Below are positions 2,479 to 31,117 of a stretch of 32,968 nucleotides of DNA, one piece after another. Source of the stretch: Kutzneria sp. 744 (lineage in GTDB: Bacteria; Actinomycetota; Actinomycetes; Mycobacteriales; Pseudonocardiaceae); assembly GCF_000568255.1 (NCBI RefSeq), contig NZ_KK037166.1, forward strand, positions 7,391,015 through 7,423,982, read 5' to 3'. Within the stretch, counting starts at the first letter, position 1. The number at the start of each line of letters is the position of its first letter. Both the position numbers and the translations under genes were made by a program. The notes under the pieces are model-generated. The model saw nothing but the letters and a program-made list of their open reading frames with translations, was not told where the DNA came from and did no database searches.

Positions 2479-3351
2479 ATGACTTACGGCAGCGCTCTGC
2501 GCCGCGATGTGCAAAGCGACAGCATCACGCCGCTGATCGGCGTGTTCGACATGTTCTCCGCGTCGCTGTCCGCGCAACACTACGGCGGCATGTTCGTCTC
2601 CGGCTTCGGTTTCGCCGCGTCCTACTACGGGCTGCCGGACATCGGCTTCATCGCGTGGCCGGACATGGTCAACTTCGTGCAGCGGCTGCGGCTGGCCTTC
2701 CCCCAGCAGCACCTGCTCGTGGACATCGACGACGGCTACGTCGATCCCGAGGTCGCCTGCCACGTCGTGGAGAACCTGGAGCGCATCGGCGCCTCCGGCG
2801 TGATCCTGGAGGACCAGAAGCGGCCGCGCCGCTGCGGTCATGTCGACGGCAAGCAGATCCTCCCGCTTGAGGAGTATCTGGAGAAGCTCAACCTCGTGCT
2901 GGAGACCCGCAAGGACCTCGTGGTCGTCGCCCGCACCGACGCCACCGAGGAGTCCGAGATCCTGCGCCGCGCCGAGGCGCTGGCCCAGACCGATGCCGAC
3001 GTGCTGCTGGTCGACGGCGTGCGCTCCGTCGACCGGATCCGCAAGGTGCGTGCCGTCATCGGCGACAAGCCCCTGCTGTTCAACCAGATCGCCGGCGGCA
3101 AGTCGCCGCGCCTGTCCCTCACCGAACTCGAGGACCTCGGCGTCAACGTCGCCATCTACTCCACGCCGTGCCTGTTCGCCGCGCACACCGCCATCGACAA
3201 CGCCCTGCTGGAGCTGCGGGCCAACGACGGCCGCCTGCCCGAGGTCTCCGAGGGCGACGTCGGCGTCGCCGCCTCCATCGACCTGTTGGAGCGCAACATC
3301 TCCCGGCACCACCCCAAGCTGGACCGGCGCGATGTCACGGTTGCGGGTTGA
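2479..3351 (+). CDS. Isocitrate lyase/PEP mutase superfamily lyase
   Basis: A 290-residue TIM-barrel enzyme of the isocitrate lyase/PEP mutase superfamily. Visible family marks are the N-terminal GVFDMFSASLSAQ, the substrate loop SGFGFAASYYGLPD, the Mg-binding DIDDGY (Asp82 and Asp84), the catalytic loop EDQKRPRRCGH and VARTDA. The loop has the lyase-type Cys-Gly-His rather than the EDKxxxxxNS of true PEP mutases. It should therefore break a C-C bond in a malate- or oxaloacetate-like substrate (methylisocitrate lyase, dimethylmalate lyase or oxaloacetate decarboxylase type) rather than make phosphonates; the exact substrate cannot be read. ATG start with AAAGGGG upstream. The stop lies 20 bases inside the following transporter gene, so the two are co-translated and probably act on related acids. 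Confidence 0.85.
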   Translation: MTYGSALRRDVQSDSITPLIGVFDMFSASLSAQHYGGMFVSGFGFAASYYGLPDIGFIAWPDMVNFVQRLRLAFPQQHLLVDIDDGYVDPEVACHVVENLERIGASGVILEDQKRPRRCGHVDGKQILPLEEYLEKLNLVLETRKDLVVVARTDATEESEILRRAEALAQTDADVLLVDGVRSVDRIRKVRAVIGDKPLLFNQIAGGKSPRLSLTELEDLGVNVAIYSTPCLFAAHTAIDNALLELRANDGRLPEVSEGDVGVAASIDLLERNISRHHPKLDRRDVTVAG

Positions 3352-4318
3352 CCCCTACATCGTGGCGTTGCTGTTGACGGTGGCCGTCGCCTCGCTGCTC
3401 CCGGCGAGCGGGGCGGTGGCCACCGGCTTCGGCCACGCGACCACGATCGCCATCGGCCTGCTGTTCTTCCTCTACGGGGCCAGGCTTTCCACCCGTGAGG
3501 CGCTGGACGGCCTCAAGCACTGGCGGCTGCACGGCCTGGTCCTCACGGCCACCTTCGTGCTGTTTCCCCTGCTGGGCCTGCTCTGCAGGCTGCTCGTGCC
3601 GTGGGCGCTGCCCCCGGACCTGTGGGCCGGCCTGATGTTCCTGTGCTGCCTGCCCTCCACCGTCCAGTCCTCCATCGCCTTCACCTCCATCGCCCGCGGC
3701 AACGTCGCCGCCGCCATCTGCAGCGCCTCCTTCTCCAACCTCATCGGCATCGTGCTCACGCCGCTGCTGGTCACCGTTTTCCTGTTCACCAGCAGCGGCG
3801 GCATCTCCTTCGGTGCCGTGCGGGACATCATGATGCAGCTCTTGGCCCCCTTCGTCGCCGGGCAGCTGCTCCGCCGGTGGATCGGCGGCTTCCTCACCCG
3901 CCACAAGAAGATCCTCGGCTACGTCGACCGGGGCTCCATCCTCCTGGTCGTCTACGCCGCCTTCAGCGAGGGCGTGGTGGCCGGCATCTGGGGCCGTCTG
4001 TCCTGGCTGTCCCTGGTCGTGCTGCTGGCCGTCAACGCCGTCCTGTTGGCCGTCGTCATGCTCGCGACCACCTTCGCCGCCCGCCGGCTGCGCTTCTCCA
4101 CCGAGGACGAGATCGCCATCGTCTTCTGCGGCTCCAAGAAGTCCCTCGCCAGCGGCCTGCCCATGGGCACGGTGCTCTTCCCCGCCGCCACCGTAGGCCT
4201 GGCCGTCCTGCCGCTGATGCTCTTCCACCAGCTGCAACTCATGGTGTGCGCCTGGCTCGCCCGACGGTACGGCGCCCGCAAGGAAGCCGTCGCGCTCGCC
4301 CGGGGTGCATGTGAGTGA
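3332..4318 (+). CDS. Bile acid:sodium symporter-like (BASS) transporter 1
   Basis: A 328-residue integral membrane protein with about ten hydrophobic helices, of the SBF-like branch of the bile acid/sodium symporter superfamily. Conserved stretches include CCLPSTVQSSIAFTSIARGN, ASFSNLIGIVLTPLL, AFSEGVVAGIWG and GSKKSLASGLPM. Many members move organic acids with sodium, and the partner lyase suggests an organic-acid substrate, by inference. The ATG at 3332 overlaps the lyase end by 20 bases. The last codons (A-C-E-stop) lie inside the left arm of a 49-base hairpin repeat at 4308-4356, so the extreme C-terminus is written by that repeat. It is about two thirds identical by eye to the transporter at 6686-7663. 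Confidence 0.85.
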   Translation: MSRLRVDPYIVALLLTVAVASLLPASGAVATGFGHATTIAIGLLFFLYGARLSTREALDGLKHWRLHGLVLTATFVLFPLLGLLCRLLVPWALPPDLWAGLMFLCCLPSTVQSSIAFTSIARGNVAAAICSASFSNLIGIVLTPLLVTVFLFTSSGGISFGAVRDIMMQLLAPFVAGQLLRRWIGGFLTRHKKILGYVDRGSILLVVYAAFSEGVVAGIWGRLSWLSLVVLLAVNAVLLAVVMLATTFAARRLRFSTEDEIAIVFCGSKKSLASGLPMGTVLFPAATVGLAVLPLMLFHQLQLMVCAWLARRYGARKEAVALARGACE

Positions 4319-6685: not shown

Positions 6686-7663
6686 ATGCGCCGAATCGAC
6701 CCCTACATCCTGGCCATCCTCGGCACGGTCGCGCTGGCCTCGCTGTTGCCGGCGCGTGGGCTGTGGGTGCCGGTGTTCGGCGAAGCGACGACGGTGGCGA
6801 TCGGCCTGCTGTTCTTCCTGTACGGCATCCGCCTGTCGCCGCAGGACGCGCTCGCCGGCATCAGGCACTGGCGGCTGCACGGCATCGTGTTCGCCGCCAC
6901 CTTCGTGCTGTTCCCGCTGCTCGGGCTGGGCCTGAGGGTGCTGGTGCCCGGCGTGATCTCGCCGGAGCTGTACATCGGCCTGCTCTACGTCTGCTGCCTG
7001 CCCTCGACCGTGCAGTCCTCGATCGCCTTCACGTCCATCGCCCGCGGCAACGTGTCGGCGGCGATCTGCGCGGCCTCGTTCTCCAACCTGGTGGGCATCG
7101 TGCTCACGCCGCTGCTGGTCGGCACGCTGCTCACCACCCGCGGCGGCGGCTTCTCCAGCCACGCACTGGTCGACATCACGCTCCAGCTGCTGCTGCCGTT
7201 CGTGCTCGGTCAGCTGGCCCGACGCTGGCTGGTCGGCTTCGTCACCCGGCACAAGTCGGTGCTGGGCCTGGTCGACCGCGGCTCGGTGCTGCTGGTCGTC
7301 TACACGGCGTTCAGCGAGGGCGTCGTCGCCGGCATCTGGGGCCAGCTGTCGATCACGAGCCTGCTCGCGCTGGTCGGCGTGAACATCGCGCTGCTGGGTG
7401 TGGTGCTCGCCGTCACCTGGTTCGGCCCGAAGCTGCTCGGCTTCTCCCGCGAGGACCGGATCACGATCATGTTCGCGGGCTCGAAGAAGTCGCTGGCCAG
7501 CGGCCTGCCCATGGCCAGTGTGCTGTTCCCGGCGGCCTCGGTCGGCCTGATCGTGCTGCCGCTGATGCTGTTCCACCAGATCCAGCTCATGGTCTGTGCC
7601 TGGCTGGCCCAGCGCTTCGCCCGGACTCCCGCGCCCAGCCCGGAACCAGCGCTCGTCGCCTGA
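6686..7663 (+). CDS. Bile acid:sodium symporter-like (BASS) transporter 2
   Basis: A 325-residue paralogue of the transporter at 3332-4318, with the same ten-helix layout and the same conserved blocks (CCLPSTVQSSIAFTSIARGN, AFSEGVVAGIWG, GSKKSLASGLPM, PLMLFHQ). Sodium-coupled uptake of an organic anion is the family role; the substrate is unknown. The ATG at 6686 is chosen because GGAG lies just upstream and M-R-R-I-D-P-Y-I aligns with the start of copy 1; the frame is open nine codons further back. Unlike copy 1 it has no partner lyase, but it shares a divergent control region with DUF2277. It is followed by a strong terminator hairpin. Confidence 0.85.
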   Translation: MRRIDPYILAILGTVALASLLPARGLWVPVFGEATTVAIGLLFFLYGIRLSPQDALAGIRHWRLHGIVFAATFVLFPLLGLGLRVLVPGVISPELYIGLLYVCCLPSTVQSSIAFTSIARGNVSAAICAASFSNLVGIVLTPLLVGTLLTTRGGGFSSHALVDITLQLLLPFVLGQLARRWLVGFVTRHKSVLGLVDRGSVLLVVYTAFSEGVVAGIWGQLSITSLLALVGVNIALLGVVLAVTWFGPKLLGFSREDRITIMFAGSKKSLASGLPMASVLFPAASVGLIVLPLMLFHQIQLMVCAWLAQRFARTPAPSPEPALVA

Positions 7664-22875: not shown

Positions 22876-25800
22876 ATGTTTCGCAAGGTGCTCGTCGCGA
22901 ACCGCGGCGAGATCGCCATCCGAGCCTTTCGCGCCGCCTACGAGCTGGGCGCCGGCACGGTCGCGGTGTTCCCCCATGAGGACCGCAACTCGCTGCACCG
23001 GCTCAAGGCCGACGAGGCCTACGAGATCGGCGAGGCCGGGCATCCGGTGCGGGCCTACCTGTCGGTCGACGAGATCGTGGAGGCGGCCCGGAAGGCCGGC
23101 GCGGACGCCATCTACCCCGGTTACGGCTTCCTGTCCGAGAACCCGGAGCTGGCCTCGGCCTGCGCCGCGGCCGGCATCACCTTCGTCGGCCCGCCGACCG
23201 AGGTGCTGGAGCTGACCGGCAACAAGGCGCGGGCGATCGCCGCGGCCAAGGCCGCCGGCCTGCCCACGCTGAAGTCCTCCGAGCCGTCCAGCGACGTGGA
23301 CGCGCTGGTCGCGGCAGCCGACGAGATCGGCTTCCCGATCTTCGTCAAGGCGGTCGCGGGCGGCGGCGGGCGCGGCATGCGGCGCGTGCTGGAGCCGGCC
23401 CAGCTGCGGGAGTCGATCGAGGCCGCGATGCGCGAGGCCGAGTCGGCCTTCGGCGACCCGACCGTGTTCCTGGAGCAGGCGGTCGTGCGGCCCCGCCACA
23501 TCGAGGTGCAGATCCTGGCCGACGCCGTCGGCAACGTGATCCACCTCTACGAGCGCGACTGCTCGGTGCAGCGGCGGCACCAGAAGGTGATCGAGCTGGC
23601 CCCGGCGCCGAACCTGGACCCGCTGGTCCGGGACAAGATCTGCGCCGACGCGGTGGCCTTCGCCAAGCAGATCGGCTACCGCAACGCCGGCACCGTCGAG
23701 TTCCTGCTCGACGAGCGCGGCAACCACGTCTTCATCGAGATGAACCCGCGCATCCAGGTCGAGCACACGGTGACCGAGGAGGTCACCGATGTCGACCTGG
23801 TGCAGTCGCAGCTGCGCATCGCCTCCGGCGAGACGCTGGGCGACCTGGGCCTGAGCCAGGACGCGATCTACCTGCGCGGCGCGGCGTTGCAGTGCCGGAT
23901 CACCACCGAGGACCCGGTGAACGGCTTCCGCCCGGACACCGGCGTGATCAGCGCCTACCGCTCGCCCGGCGGCTCGGGCATCCGCCTGGACGGCGGCGCG
24001 ATCGGCGCCGGCAGCATGGTCGGCGCGCACTTCGACTCGATGCTGGTCAAGCTGACCTGCCGTGGCCGCACCTTCGAGGCGGCGGTGGCCAGGGCCCGGC
24101 GCGCCGTGGCCGAGTTCCGTATCCGCGGCGTCTCCACCAACATCCCGTTCCTCCAGGCCGTGCTGGACGACGCGGACTTCCGCGAGGGCCGCGTGACCAC
24201 GGCGTTCATCGAGGAGCGGCCGGAGCTGCTGACCGCCCGGCACTCGGCCGACCGCGGCACGAAGCTGCTGACCTACCTGGCCGACGTCACGGTGAACAAG
24301 CCCAACGGCCCCCGGCCGCAGGTGATCGACCCGTGGGCCAAGCTGCCCAAGCTGGACCTGAACGCGGAGCCGCCCGCCGGCTCCAAGCAGCGGCTGACCG
24401 AGCTGGGCCCGGAGGGCTTCGCCGCCTGGCTGCGCAACGAGTCGGGCGTGCTGGTCACCGACACGACCTTCCGTGACGCCCACCAGTCGCTGCTGGCGAC
24501 CCGGGTCCGGACCAAGGACCTGCTCCAGGTCGCGCCGCACGTGGCGCGGATGACCCCGGAGCTGCTGTCGCTGGAGTGCTGGGGCGGCGCGACCTACGAC
24601 GTGGCGCTGCGCTTCCTGGCCGAGGACCCGTGGGAGCGGCTGGCGGCGCTGCGCGAGTCGGTGCCGAACCTGTGCCTCCAGATGCTGCTGCGCGGCCGCA
24701 ACACCGTCGGCTACACGCCGTACCCGGAGGCGGTGACCAGGGCCTTCGTCGAGGAGGCGACCGAGACCGGCATCGACATCTTCCGCATCTTCGACGCCCT
24801 CAACGACATCGAGCAGATGCGGCCGGCGATCGAGGCCGTGCGGGAGACCGGCAAGTCCATCGCCGAGGTGTCGCTGTGCTACACCGCCGACCTGTCCGAC
24901 CCCGGCGAGCAGCTGTACACCCTGGACTACTACCTGAAGCTGGCCGAGCAGATCGTCGGGGCCGGCGCGCACGTGCTGGCGATCAAGGACATGGCCGGGC
25001 TGCTGCGCCCGCCGGCCGCCGCGCGGCTGGTCACGGCGCTGCGCAAGGAGTTCGACCTGCCCGTCCACCTGCACACGCACGACACCGCGGGCGGGCAGCT
25101 GGCCACCTACCTGGCGGCGATCCAGGCCGGGGTGGACGCCATCGACGGCGCGACCGCGTCGATCGCCGGCACCACCTCGCAGCCGTCGCTGTCGGCCATC
25201 GTCGCCGCCACCGACCACTCGGCCCGCACCACCGGCCTTGATCTTCAGGCCGTGTGCGACCTGGAGCCGTACTGGGAGGCCGTGCGCCGGGTGTACGCGC
25301 CGTTCGAGGCGGGCCTGCCGTCGCCGACCGGTCGCGTCTACACCCACGAGATCCCCGGCGGGCAGCTGTCCAACCTGCGACAGCAGGCCATCGCGCTGGG
25401 CCTGGGCGACCGGTTCGAGGACATCGAGGCCACCTACGCGGCTGCCGACCGCATGCTGGGCCGCCTGGTCAAGGTCACGCCGTCGTCCAAGGTGGTCGGC
25501 GACCTGGCGCTGCACCTGGTCGGCGCGGGCGTGGACCCGGCCGAGTTCGAGGCCGACCCGGGCCGCTTCGACATCCCGGACTCGGTGATCGGCTTCCTGC
25601 ACGGCGAGCTGGGCGACCCGCCCGGCGGCTGGCCGGAGCCGTTCCGCACCAAGGCCCTGAGCGGCCGCACCGCGCCCCGGGCCGTCGCGGACCTCTCCGA
25701 GGAGGACACCGAGGGGCTGGCCAGCAACCGGCGGGGCACGCTGAACCGCCTGCTGTTCCCGGCGCCGACCAGGGAGTTCCTCACCCACCGGGACGCCTAC

Positions 25801-26413: not shown

Positions 26414-27299
26414 GTGCTGGAGTTGCAGTCCGTGGCCCAGCGGCAGGGCGCGGTCGTCCCGAAGTCCCCGTGGTTGCCCACCGCCTCGTTGGCGCTGGCC
26501 GACCTGGCCGGTCGAGTGCTCGGCCTCGACGTGCGCCGGGTGCAGGTGCGCGCCGGCACGTCGAAACTCGTCGGTGGCATCCACAATCGCGAAGTGCTGA
26601 TGGCCAACCGGGCGTTTCAGGCGCAGGCGCTGCGGCACGCGTCCGGTCCGGTGCTGACCATCGGCGGCGACTGCGGCGTCGAGACCGTGCCGCTCGGCTT
26701 CGCCCGCAAGCGGTTCGGGCCGGCGCTGGGCGTGCTGTGGTTCGACGCACACGGCGACCTCAACACCCCGGCCACTTCGCCTTCCGGCGCGTACCACGGC
26801 ATGGCCTTACGCCACGCCTTCGGCGAGGGCGACCGCGACTTCGTGCTAGACGCCCCGGTCGTGTCCCGGCGGGTCGTGCTGGCCGGCGCGCGGGCGCTGG
26901 ATCCCGGCGAGCAGGCCATGATCGATCGAGGCTTGGTCCGCCACGTGCCGATCGAACGCGACTACGACGCCTCCTGGGTGGTGGACGCGGTGATCGCCTC
27001 CCGCGCCCCTCAGTTCTATCTGCACATCGATCTCGACGTGCTGGACTCCCACCGAGTTCGCCGACGTCACCTGCCCCGTGCCCGGCGGTCTGTTGATCAG
27101 CGAACTGGTGGACGCCATCCGCGCCGTCGCCGCGATCCGCCCGATCATCGGGGCCGGCATCACCGAGTGCGCCACCGACAATCCGGACCGGTTACAGGTG
27201 CTGGTGCCCATCCTGCGGGCCGTCGGCGCCGCCCTCCACGCCCACTCCACCGCCCTGCCGGCCCAGCCCACCCCGTCCCTGCCCCACGCCGTGCGGTGA
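26414..27299 (+). pseudogene. Arginase/agmatinase-family protein, frameshifted
   Basis: A ureohydrolase-fold protein (arginase, agmatinase, formimidoylglutamase). The metal-site blocks are TIGGDCG (Cys where GGDH is usual), LWFDAHGDLNTP and HIDLDVLD. Directly after HIDLDVLD the frame breaks: one extra base in TCCC at 27047-27050 shifts it, and the family sequence continues in the next frame as E-F-A-D-V-T-C-P-V-P-G-G-L, IGAGITECATDNPDRLQVLV to TGA 27297-27299. Read literally the frame runs on to 27364 with an arginine-rich nonsense tail that crosses the hairpin repeat. Either a recent mutation or a sequencing error. GTG start at 26414 with a weak ribosome-binding site. With the base removed the protein would be about 295 residues, normal for the family. 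Confidence 0.75.
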
Positions 27300-27405: not shown

Positions 27406-28470
27406 GTGACGTCCCCGAGATTCGACATCACTGCCGCGCACCCGGAATTCCTCCGGTTGCGCTCGGCGGCCGGCGCCGGCGACTGGGCGGGCATCGACCA
27501 GTTCTTCGCGTCCCTGCCCGATGGCAACGCGGCCGCCGAGGCCACGTGGATCGTGGCCGACATCGTCGGGGTCGAGGAGTTCCTGCGGCGGGTGCCGCCG
27601 TCCCGGCTCAGCCGGCTGCTGCTGGCCTGCCAGCACATCGCCCAGGCCTGGGAGATCCGCTCCAGCAAGCGGTCCCAGCACGTCTCCAGCCAGCAGTTCG
27701 CCGGCATGCACGAGGCGCTGCGCGAGGAGTTCGCGGCGATCACCGTTCAGGACATGCAGGCGGTGGCGCAGGAGGCGATGTCGACCGGCCTGTTGCAGGT
27801 GCCGGAAGGGTTGGCGGCCGACTGGGCCGGGTTCGTTCAGGCGCCGCTGTTCTCGACGATGGCGGTCCACGGCAACGGCCACGCCTCGCGGCAGTACAAG
27901 GGGCGCAGCCTGGTGCTCGGTGGCGAAGGCGTCAGCCTGGTGACCGGCGCCGGCACGGTGACTGTGCTGTTCCGGGACTGCGTGGCGATGCGCTGCTGGC
28001 CCGACGGCGCGCGGCAGCTGTTCGGCGCGGACGGTTTCAACATCAGCGTCGAGCCGACGATGTACGAGATGCCGCCGACCGCGATCGGCTGGCTCGACGC
28101 GCAGGTGCGTCCCGAGGCGCGGATCCCGATGCCGGCCAGGGCCTCCGTGCCGCAGCCGACCTCGCAGCCGACGGCTCAGTCCGTGGCCGCGGTCGCCGCG
28201 CCGCGTCGGACCCGTTCCGTCATGAACCGGATCGGGATGGTGCTCTTCGGTCTCGCGGCGGCATTTCGTGCTGCTGGCCGTCTTCGGGACGGCGTCGCTG
28301 GCCACCGACGCCCAGTCGGACATGGAGCCGGACGGGGTGATCATCCTGTGGGTGCTGGTCGCGGCGACGGCCGGCCCGTTCGCGCTGCTGTACTTCCGGG
28401 GACGGCGGGCATGACCGCGGGGGCACGTCGCGGAACCGATTCCACGGCGTGCCCCGTTACCCGCCCGTAG
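27406..28470 (+). CDS. Gene A: chimera of gene B N-terminus and gene C C-terminal domain, frameshifted near its end
   Basis: Residues 1-106 parallel the N-terminus of gene B (for example LSRLLLACQHIAQAWEIR against LARRLHASRRIAKAWEIR, and QQFAGMHEALR against DQFAGMHEQLR). From about residue 108 the protein parallels residues 332-471 of gene C (AAITVQDM/AAVTVEDL, ADWAGF, CWPDGAR, DGFNISVEPTMY/DGISISIEPTLY). The M16 peptidase part is absent. The open frame gives 354 residues, but from 28264 the reading is implausible. Skipping one T of TTT (28264-28266) gives a hydrophobic C-terminus (FVLLAVFGTASLATDA, VIILWVLVAATAGPFALLYF) ending at TGA 28412-28414, matching the two-helix anchor of gene C. True end is therefore probably 28414. 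GTG start, probably leaderless. Confidence 0.7.
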   Translation: MTSPRFDITAAHPEFLRLRSAAGAGDWAGIDQFFASLPDGNAAAEATWIVADIVGVEEFLRRVPPSRLSRLLLACQHIAQAWEIRSSKRSQHVSSQQFAGMHEALREEFAAITVQDMQAVAQEAMSTGLLQVPEGLAADWAGFVQAPLFSTMAVHGNGHASRQYKGRSLVLGGEGVSLVTGAGTVTVLFRDCVAMRCWPDGARQLFGADGFNISVEPTMYEMPPTAIGWLDAQVRPEARIPMPARASVPQPTSQPTAQSVAAVAAPRRTRSVMNRIGMVLFGLAAAFRAAGRLRDGVAGHRRPVGHGAGRGDHPVGAGRGDGRPVRAAVLPGTAGMTAGARRGTDSTACPVTRP

Positions 28471-28488
28471 ATGAAGAGTTTTCATCTA
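28468..28488. promoter_or_regulatory. Inverted repeat overlapping the gene B promoter
   Basis: Perfect arms TAGATGAA (28468-28475) and TTCATCTA (28481-28488) around GAGTT. AT-rich in a GC-rich region, it touches the -10 candidate TATTGT (28487-28492), which lies seven bases before the gene B GTG. It could be an operator for the B-C operon or a small terminator after gene A. Confidence 0.45.
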
Positions 28489-28499
28489 TTGTCTCGCTG

Positions 28500-29432
28500 G
28501 TGATCAAGCCCTCGGCCCGCCCGTTCGACCAGGCGGCGGCCTTCCCGGAGCTTCTCGGGCTGCGCGAAGCGGTGCGCGCCGCCGACTGGACGGCCATCGA
28601 GCTGTTCTTCGCCGGCCTGTCCGACGTCGACATGACGGCCTTCGCCGTGAACGTGGTCGGGGGAGTCGAGGGGGCCGAGGACTTCCTGGCCGCCCTGCCG
28701 CCGACGCCGCTGGCCCGCCGCCTGCACGCGTCCCGGCGCATCGCCAAGGCGTGGGAGATCCGGTCCGGCTACCGGGCCGCCCATGTCAGCCGGGACCAGT
28801 TCGCGGGCATGCACGAGCAGTTGCGCGTCGCCGAACCGATCCTGATCAAGCTCACCGCGGAGGACCCGTCCGACGCGGTGGCCTGGTGCCTGCGCCTGAA
28901 CACGGCGCTGGGCCTGCAAATGGGACAGAGCGAGTCCCGCCGCCGCTACGACCGGCTGGCCCGGTCCGCGCCGCACTGCTTCACCGCGCAGGGCCGGCTG
29001 CTCCAGCAGCTGTGCCCGAAATGGGGCGGCAACTGGGAAGTCCTGCACGCGTTCGGCCGGGAGTGCATGGACGCGGCGCCGCCGGGCTCGCTGAGCCCGA
29101 TCGTGCTGGCCGAGGCGCACCTGGAGCACTACTTCGAGCTCGAAGGCCCGGAGGCCGGCCGCTACCTGCGGCAGGTCTCCGTGCAGCGGGAGATCATCGA
29201 GTCGGCCGAGAAGTCGGTGCTGCACCCGGACTTCGCCGGCGGCTACCACTGGCCCACCGCGCACGGCGTCTACGCCCTGCTGTTCGGGCGCATGGGCGAC
29301 CAGGAGCGGGCCAAGGTCCACTTCACCGCCCTCGGCGAGGCGCTCAGCGAATACCCGTGGCAGAGCGCTTCCGGCACACCCGAGGCCCTCTTCCGGCGGA
29401 TGCGCGACAAGGCCCTCGGCGGTGCGAAGTGA
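28500..29432 (+). CDS. Gene B: helical-repeat protein coupled to the M16 peptidase
   Basis: A 310-residue, mostly helical cytosolic protein without signal or membrane segment. Residues 1-110 are shared with gene A. The rest has TPR/SEL1-like helix pairs: AWCLRLNTALGLQMGQSESR, LLQQLCPKWGGNWEVLHAF, AEAHLEHYFEL and HGVYALLFGRMGDQERAKVHF. It reminds me of DUF4034-type actinobacterial proteins, with moderate certainty. No catalytic motif is seen; a scaffold or substrate-adaptor role for the peptidase is inferred. The GTG at 28500 is preferred over an ATG 17 codons upstream because it aligns with the start of gene A and has TATTGT seven bases before it (leaderless). Its TGA overlaps the gene C GTG by four bases. 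Confidence 0.75.
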   Translation: MIKPSARPFDQAAAFPELLGLREAVRAADWTAIELFFAGLSDVDMTAFAVNVVGGVEGAEDFLAALPPTPLARRLHASRRIAKAWEIRSGYRAAHVSRDQFAGMHEQLRVAEPILIKLTAEDPSDAVAWCLRLNTALGLQMGQSESRRRYDRLARSAPHCFTAQGRLLQQLCPKWGGNWEVLHAFGRECMDAAPPGSLSPIVLAEAHLEHYFELEGPEAGRYLRQVSVQREIIESAEKSVLHPDFAGGYHWPTAHGVYALLFGRMGDQERAKVHFTALGEALSEYPWQSASGTPEALFRRMRDKALGGAK

Positions 29433-31117
29433 TCAAGGAAACCGAGGTCTGCGGCATCAGGACCCTGGTCGCGCCGGGCAACGGGCCGCTCGTCGCGGGG
29501 CTGGTGTTCCGGGTCGGCTGCGCGGACGAGCCGCTGTCCCGGCGCGGGCTGACCCACCTGATCGAGCACCTGGCGCTGCACCGGCACGGCCTGATCGAGC
29601 ACGACGCCAACGCGGCCACCGGCATCACGACCACGCACTTCTACACCAGCGGCAGCGAGCAGGCCGTGGTCACGTACCTGACCAGCGTCTGCGACTCGCT
29701 GCGTGACCTGCCGCTGGAGCGGATCGCCACCGAGAAGACGATCCTGCGCACCGAGCAGGCCGGCCGCCCGCACGACAACCTGCTGGTCTGGCGCTACGGC
29801 GCGGTCGGCTTCGGCGCGGCGGGCTATCCGGAGTGGGGCCTGGAGGCCATCACCGACGAGGACGTGCGGGACTGGGCGGCGACCCGGTTCACGCGGGAGA
29901 ACGCGGTGCTGTGGATCTCCGGCGAGGTGCCGGAGGGGCTGAACCTGACGCTGCCGTCCGGATCCCCGCATCCGCTGCCGGAGATCACCTCCGCCCTGCC
30001 GGCCACACCGGCCTACTTCGCCGAGGGCGGCGGCAAGATCAGCTTCAGCGCGGTCACCGAGCGGTCGGCCCGGGCGTCGCTGTTCGCGATGGTGTTGGAG
30101 CGGGCCCTGTTCCGGGCGCTGCGCACCGAGGACGGCAACTCCTACACCATCGCCGCCGCGTACGTGCCGCGTGACGGCTCGCACGCCACGATCACCGCGA
30201 TGGCCGACGCGCTGCCGGAGAAGCAGGACGCCGTCCTGGGTGGACTGATCGACGTGCTGGCCGCGTTCCAGGCCGGCCGTTTCGACGCCGACGAGCTGGA
30301 AACGGTGCGGGACAAGGCATCCACCTCGCTCGATCGGCCGGAGGCGGCGCGGGCGGTGCTGTTCACCGAGGCCATCGACATCCTCTACGGCCGGACTCGC
30401 TACACGCTGGACGAGTTCCGCGCCGAGCTCGCCGCCGTCACCGTCGAGGACCTCGGCGAGGTGGCCGGGCAGCTGATGGACACCCTGTTGTTGCAGGTCC
30501 CCCGGGGCAGCCGGGCCGACTGGGCCGGCTTCGCCGAGGCCCCGATGTTCTCGGACAAGGCCGTCGTCGGCGAGCAGTACCCGTCGCTGCAGAACGGCGA
30601 TTTCGTGCTCGTCCTCGGCCACGACGGCGTGAGTGTGACCTCCCCGCACGGCGTGCTGACCGTGAAGTACCGCGAGTGCGTGCTGATGCAGTGCTGGCCC
30701 GACGGCGCCCGGCGGCTGGTCGGCCCGGACGGGATCAGCATCAGCATCGAGCCCACCCTGTACGACATCCCGGAGCAGGCGATCACCCGTCTCGACGGCA
30801 AGATCGCCGACGAGCTGATGGTCCGGCAGCCGGCGCGCGCGGCCGACCGGATCCCGCAGCGGCCGGCCCCGGCCGCACCGCCGCCGGTGATGAAGGTCAA
30901 GACCCCGCTCAAGGCCAAGCTCGTGCTCGCCCTCGTCGCGCTGTTCTGCCCGGTGCTGGCCCTGGTGGCGACCGCGGCCCTGGTCACCAGCGACAACGTG
31001 GGACACGCCCTGCTGCACTTCGCCCTCCCGGCCTGGGGCGCGTTCGCCGCGGGCGCCGCCGCCATCCGGCTGGCCAAAGGCCTGGGCTACCTCGGCGGCA
31101 CGAAGTCCGATACGTAA
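29429..31117 (+). CDS. Gene C: membrane-anchored M16 metallopeptidase with C-terminal beta domain
   Basis: A 562-residue protein. Residues 1 to about 330 are an M16 (pitrilysin/insulinase) peptidase: the inverted zinc motif HLIEH (His43, Glu46, His47) is intact, and TEKTILRTE supplies Glu109 at the place of the third zinc ligand, at a shorter spacing than usual. The second M16-like half (190-330) has FSAVTERSARASLFAMVLER and LFRALRTEDGNSYTIAAAYV. Residues about 385-470 form a beta-rich, perhaps PH-like, domain (LVLGHDGVSV, CVLMQCWPDGARRLVG, ISIEPTLYDIP) shared with gene A. A Pro-rich linker and two membrane helices (about 497-521 and 527-547) follow. GTG overlaps the gene B stop (GTGA). No signal peptide, so the peptidase probably faces the cytoplasm. 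Confidence 0.85.
   Translation: MIKETEVCGIRTLVAPGNGPLVAGLVFRVGCADEPLSRRGLTHLIEHLALHRHGLIEHDANAATGITTTHFYTSGSEQAVVTYLTSVCDSLRDLPLERIATEKTILRTEQAGRPHDNLLVWRYGAVGFGAAGYPEWGLEAITDEDVRDWAATRFTRENAVLWISGEVPEGLNLTLPSGSPHPLPEITSALPATPAYFAEGGGKISFSAVTERSARASLFAMVLERALFRALRTEDGNSYTIAAAYVPRDGSHATITAMADALPEKQDAVLGGLIDVLAAFQAGRFDADELETVRDKASTSLDRPEAARAVLFTEAIDILYGRTRYTLDEFRAELAAVTVEDLGEVAGQLMDTLLLQVPRGSRADWAGFAEAPMFSDKAVVGEQYPSLQNGDFVLVLGHDGVSVTSPHGVLTVKYRECVLMQCWPDGARRLVGPDGISISIEPTLYDIPEQAITRLDGKIADELMVRQPARAADRIPQRPAPAAPPPVMKVKTPLKAKLVLALVALFCPVLALVATAALVTSDNVGHALLHFALPAWGAFAAGAAAIRLAKGLGYLGGTKSDT

Follow-up and report, generated by a model that had tools for sequence, protein, structure and literature searches.

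Between two genes that we take, with an earlier note on this DNA, to be pyc and rsmD, Kutzneria sp. 744 carries three consecutive genes, A, B and C, of which A combines parts resembling the other two. What do these genes encode, and how did the composite gene A come about? They lie in a stretch of 32,968 nucleotides (the window) of a genome of 11.65 Mb in a single contig, and from position 22876 onwards the gene order in the window is pyc, a frame-broken arginase-family gene, A, B, C and rsmD. A, B and C are real genes. We consider it probable that, taken together, B and C constitute a peptide-cutting unit of the M16B type at the membrane face and that A is what was left of a collapsed first B-C pair.

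The closest named relatives of C belong to Kutzneria. The earlier note took the interval from pyc to rsmD to be empty or nearly so in relatives; however, all five Kutzneria relatives fetched have there a counterpart of the window's arginase-family gene and at least one B-C pair. The arginase-family gene of the window (26414-27296) has a frame break near 27047, and the copy in the sister genome G299 is open over 293 aa. An operon of B-C with pyc or rsmD was considered and rejected, these neighbours having been seen in Kutzneria loci only. Elsewhere in the window, the genes at 3341-4318 and 6686-7663, the latter with a match to SBF_like, are related to each other, and each is ~70% identical to the other's counterpart in G299.

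Gene C (29429..31117, forward strand, as are all features of A, B and C given below) encodes a candidate M16B-type zinc peptidase of 562 aa with an extra C-terminal domain and a hydrophobic tail. Its zinc motif HLIEH occupies residues 43-47 (29555..29569), the expected third zinc ligand is the nearly invariant Glu109 (29753..29755), and in the second lobe the R/Y pair of M16 enzymes spans Arg232 to Tyr239 (30122..30145). Against Pfam, the second lobe scored above the cutoff (Peptidase_M16_C, 2.9e-6, 27.7 bits, cutoff 23), and the first-lobe model Peptidase_M16 stayed under its own (15.8 bits, cutoff 22.3); the latter model was matched at E <= 1 by 28/30 C proteins. A profile built from the 30 C proteins matched solved M16B peptidases, the best being 4nnz at 1.2e-9, and also both chains of the active/inactive pair 3amj. 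Glu102 and Glu109 align with two glutamates of 4nnz at equal spacing, and the partner of Glu109 is a conserved residue of the solved M16B peptidases, which bears out the complete zinc site (HLIEH, Glu109) that the earlier note had proposed. HxxEH and Glu109 are retained together in 28 of the 30 aligned C proteins, the window's C included, and the R/Y pair in 27. Judged by its motifs, C is an M16B-type zinc peptidase with predicted peptidase activity. Membership in M16B would also entail a dimer of ~50 kDa chains with such activity. A functional role of the M16 R/Y pair is described in excerpts of a 2025 M16 review (PMC12731061).

Two C proteins do not carry the zinc motif. Each is encoded by the first copy of a tandem pair in one of two Actinoplanes species (L007, 3451-8518; L008, 3433-8509), where the order is B-C-B-C, and both are devoid of the R/Y pair as well. 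The first copy keeps the membrane helix there; the second keeps the motifs and has no tail helix. At another locus (L070, 8575-13850), a second, diverged C with HLIEH present and R/Y gone lies upstream of the B-C pair, separated from it by a 158-aa reading frame. At L086 (8006-10430), the C of genome G033, which is given as 74% complete, is split over two frames.

Behind the two lobes, residues 352-486 of C (30482..30886) were modelled as a folded beta domain, with seven predicted strands followed by a C-terminal helix, at a pLDDT of 92.9. Foldseek searches with this domain gave weak matches (best E 7.5e-3, none at E <= 0.001, and a TMq of at most 0.41 among the matches listed). The IDOL F3 subdomain and SSRP1 came out on top, followed by Pob3, CARMIL and Rtt106, all of them solved domains that we assume to be PH-like. 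No PH model was among the Pfam families listed for C. The modelled fold suggests that the added domain is probably PH-like.

The earlier note had assigned to C a C-terminal beta domain and two membrane helices. The domain is reproduced by the model, but only one of the helices passes the hydropathy threshold, namely residues 498-516 (30920..30976) with a mean of 2.72; a weaker second hydrophobic stretch (528-546) peaks at 1.55, under the threshold. Among 29 near C proteins, two tail helices were counted in 18, one in 7 and none in 4. Such helices are absent in L082, L085 and the second Actinoplanes copies, and also in all five C genes examined from loci with swapped gene order (a comparison that covers these loci other than L133). 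C proteins of this kind end in a short basic stretch, as seen in L148, L149, L150, L151 and L152, and one may guess that this basic C-terminus touches the membrane too.

Gene B (28500..29432) encodes a protein of 310 aa, the predicted all-helical, TPR-like partner of C. Relatives place its start at 28500 instead of 28449, and we adopt this position. The GTGA overlap with C, named in the earlier note, was read at 29429-29432, so that C begins inside the end of B. The window's B matched no Pfam family at E <= 1, in agreement with the view that it has no enzyme motif. Its model consists entirely of helices (pLDDT 93.7), and Foldseek returned weak matches with low TM-scores, the best being TPR proteins at E 0.019 or worse. 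Some B proteins weakly match known families, namely TPR_19 (12/29 at E <= 1, best 7.9e-5) and DUF4034 (1/29, at 0.006), from which the window's B, with its empty Pfam result, differs. From the model, B appears to be a TPR-like solenoid.

B and C travel together. The order sample comprised 298 genomes, the window's own among them; at E <= 1e-8, C was detected in 61/298 and B in 64/298. Outside the window, a same-strand B adjoins 22 of the 23 near C homologues (>=44% identity; the C of G033, present as two fragments, taken as a single gene, and A and C of the window itself excluded). The exception is G215, in which C has no adjacent B and a B relative lies on another contig. In the phylum sample, C was matched in 5/246 genomes. 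One is the window's; three belong to a different family of the class, and in 3/3 of these a same-strand B is upstream of C; the fifth is G407 from another class-level group, whose C (31% identity) has no B nearby. In the family sample, 13/150 genomes matched C at E <= 1e-30. Six of them lie outside Kutzneria and G215, and in all six, five of which were read in detail, the order is swapped to C-B, with C at 38-40% identity.

For the locus comparison, 47 loci were used, of which 46 have a called C (L098 being the one that does not). The two alignments A1 and A2 omit L075, L078 and L086; the distant C genes L087-L107 are omitted from A1 as well, and A2 includes one distant B, that of L087. Altogether 49 C genes were called in the 47 loci. 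B lies directly upstream of 27 of them and overlaps C by exactly 4 bases in 23 of these 27, although starts and overlaps in the relatives may be off because their genes were called by an in-house codon-usage caller. No B on the same strand was detected up to three genes away from any of the 20 distant C genes of L087-L107, even with a B profile; at L087 a B lies near the distant C on the opposite strand.

The genes around B-C differ between genera. The pairing is kept where the neighbours have changed, where it has been duplicated in tandem and, in six genomes, where the two genes stand in reversed order. The association across genomes on which the earlier note had staked its proposal beforehand is borne out by the 22 of 23 near homologues together with the six swapped-order genomes. 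As far as sequence comparison goes, B and C make up a conserved unit of two genes, present in several actinobacterial groups.

Gene A presents a different case. Its body (27406..28261) consists of ~105 residues of B1 type followed by the C-terminal part of a C1-type protein. The match of A to C is at 2.3e-45, that to B at 2.5e-27. A C-like hydrophobic tail follows at 28262..28414, out of frame with the body and recognisable when translated alone. The open frame of A itself continues to 28470, and its in-frame tail is not hydrophobic (best 19-residue mean 1.35). With its C-like tail out of frame, A in its present form lacks an anchor. Thus, the earlier description of A as the N-terminal domain of B joined to the C-terminal domain and anchor of C stands for the B-like front and the C-like back, but not for the anchor.

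The sister genome G299 accounts for both parts. Its gene order is arginase, B1, C1, B2, C2, rsmD, and in a tree of pyc and rsmD the window and G299 are sisters (99/98). A is 64% identical to B1 of G299 over 106 positions and 58% identical to C1 over 184 positions, starting at C1 residue 330. In trees, the front of A groups with B1 of G299 (98/92) and the back with C1 (100/97). At the DNA level, A aligns to G299 in two blocks of 75 and 78% identity that overlap on GCTGCGC (27717..27723), the junction in A. B1 and C1 of G299 share GCAGCTGCGC, a direct repeat, at both places corresponding to this junction. Counted on G299, ~1,592 bases (~1.6 kb) between the short direct repeats are missing in A. 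We conclude that A is, by sequence, the remnant of a first B-C pair, its two parts matching one intact pair of G299. The common ancestor of the window and G299 would have carried two B-C pairs in tandem, and the window lineage would then have lost ~1.6 kb between the short direct repeats, which left the first part of B1 joined in frame to the last part of C1.

Fusions of this kind do not recur in the genomes searched. A was matched in 26/298 genomes of the order sample, and outside the window the match was to the B-like or the C-like part, never to both. Within the genus sample (7 genomes) it was matched in 6, best in G299, where the match falls in two separate genes. None of the other 297 order-sample genomes and none of the other six genus genomes gave a match that covers the B-like and the C-like part together. 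Kutzneria G298, G300, G301 and G303 have one B-C pair and no A, and G302 (4.7 Mb, ~210 contigs) gave no match to A.

The state of A bears on two further explanations. One is that errors in sequencing or assembly broke the frames of both A and the arginase-family gene, and that the living strain has A intact, as a fusion with an anchor. The two breaks lie ~1.2 kb apart, while a single frame suffices for 26 of the 27 G299 proteins matched in the window, and the genome has a stated completeness of 95.19. The same count of 26/27 also indicates, however, that frame breaks are rare in the window, and an error of this kind leaves the 1.6 kb deletion unexplained, so that A would still be a deletion product. 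We regard such errors as a possibility to be kept in mind, though not the one that we favour.

The other explanation is that A serves as a short regulator, in which a B-type helical cap and a C-type domain compete with B or C. The fusion is in frame, the GC content at third positions is 0.946, and unique changes in the two parts of A are about as many as in the intact first pair of G299 (8 vs 7 and 7 vs 8). A is thus not plainly decayed, which points either to a recent deletion or to an A that is still constrained or used to some extent. In the B model, the cut falls inside helix 98-121, which could continue into the last M16 helix. Against a regulator, A was found in one genome only, its membrane part is out of frame, and a random deletion keeps the frame open about one time in three in any case. 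Moreover, the dN between the front of A and B1 of G299 is 0.266, twice the 0.13 between the window's B and B2 of G299; for the back of A it is 0.32 against 0.29. The corresponding dN/dS values (~0.7 for A against the first pair, 0.25 for the window's B against B2 of G299, 0.58 for the C tails) were not relied on for selection, because dS (0.37 to 0.62) did not rise with divergence. A regulatory function seems unlikely to us, and A probably has no role of its own. A designed chimera or decoy is rejected because G299 holds the whole first pair at the same place. Gene A, read as a deletion remnant, illustrates clearly and on a small scale how the scar of a deletion can look like a chimera.

The complex of peptidase, adaptor and decoy suggested in the earlier note is thereby reduced to a peptidase with a coupled partner, as seen in 22/23 near homologues and again in swapped order, and its decoy has turned out to be the deletion remnant A. 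M16B enzymes are described as working in dimers that shut around a peptide in the manner of a clam shell (excerpts of PMC12731061). C would form a peptide-cutting chamber of this type. Given the membrane tail in most near relatives and the probably PH-like domain, this chamber is expected at the inner membrane face, where domain and tail would place it. B most likely binds C or the substrate of C and may present peptides or control their entry. The unit would then, as seems likely, degrade or process peptides or short proteins at the inner membrane surface.

More tentatively, B-C may represent an undescribed actinobacterial system in which an M16B chamber, fixed at the inner membrane face by a PH-like domain and tail, relies on a dedicated TPR-type partner to select substrates. 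In Actinoplanes, this system would have split into two copies, one with the motifs but no membrane helices, the other anchored but without the motifs. A description of the B-C pair was not found in the open-licence literature searched. In the excerpts of the 2025 M16 review (PMC12731061), the terms transmembrane, membrane-bound, TPR, adaptor and pleckstrin are absent. Physiological substrates of prokaryotic M16 members are called poorly defined in the same excerpts, and M16 family clusters near other genes are reported in Streptomyces (excerpts of PMC13118837).

It is also conceivable, but in our judgement improbable, that B-C serves to mature a single small peptide of its own and is not a more general peptidase. 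The M16B pair AlbF/AlbE is involved in subtilosin maturation (according to excerpts of PMC12731061), and B might, at a guess, serve as the receptor of a precursor. In the 46 loci that have C, the genes flanking B-C include no group shared between genera, an argument weakened by the fact that neighbours were grouped by similarity without names and that short reading frames were left out. Known anti-phage defence proteins were rejected as candidates, with A, B and C matching 0 PADLOC families at E <= 1, and so was a mobile origin, with no match for C in the plasmid collection and none for B in the phage collection.

Compared with known systems, our preferred reading of B-C as a membrane-face peptidase unit sets C beside the bacterial M16B peptidases BHP, TTHA1264/1265 and SPH2681/SPH2682, with which it shares HxxEH, the glutamate of the third ligand, the R/Y pair and the two-lobe chain. 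The spacing from HxxEH to Glu109 is 61 residues in C and 75 in BHP (numbers for the latter from excerpts of PMC12731061). The two Actinoplanes loci, which each encode a C with the zinc motif next to one without it, recall the active/inactive pair SPH2681/SPH2682, but differ from it in that the copies without the zinc motif do not carry the R/Y pair either. AlbE and AlbF are likewise M16B proteins encoded as a pair (excerpts of PMC12731061). Both of their chains, however, are M16B proteins, whereas the partner in B-C is helical and no peptide product is known. Relative to the bacterial M16B peptidases named first, C adds a domain that is probably PH-like, often a membrane tail, and a TPR-like partner. 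The extra domain, the tail and the helical partner make C a variant among the M16B peptidases. As the same non-peptidase partner is kept amid changing surroundings, the binding target of B may lead to the substrate.
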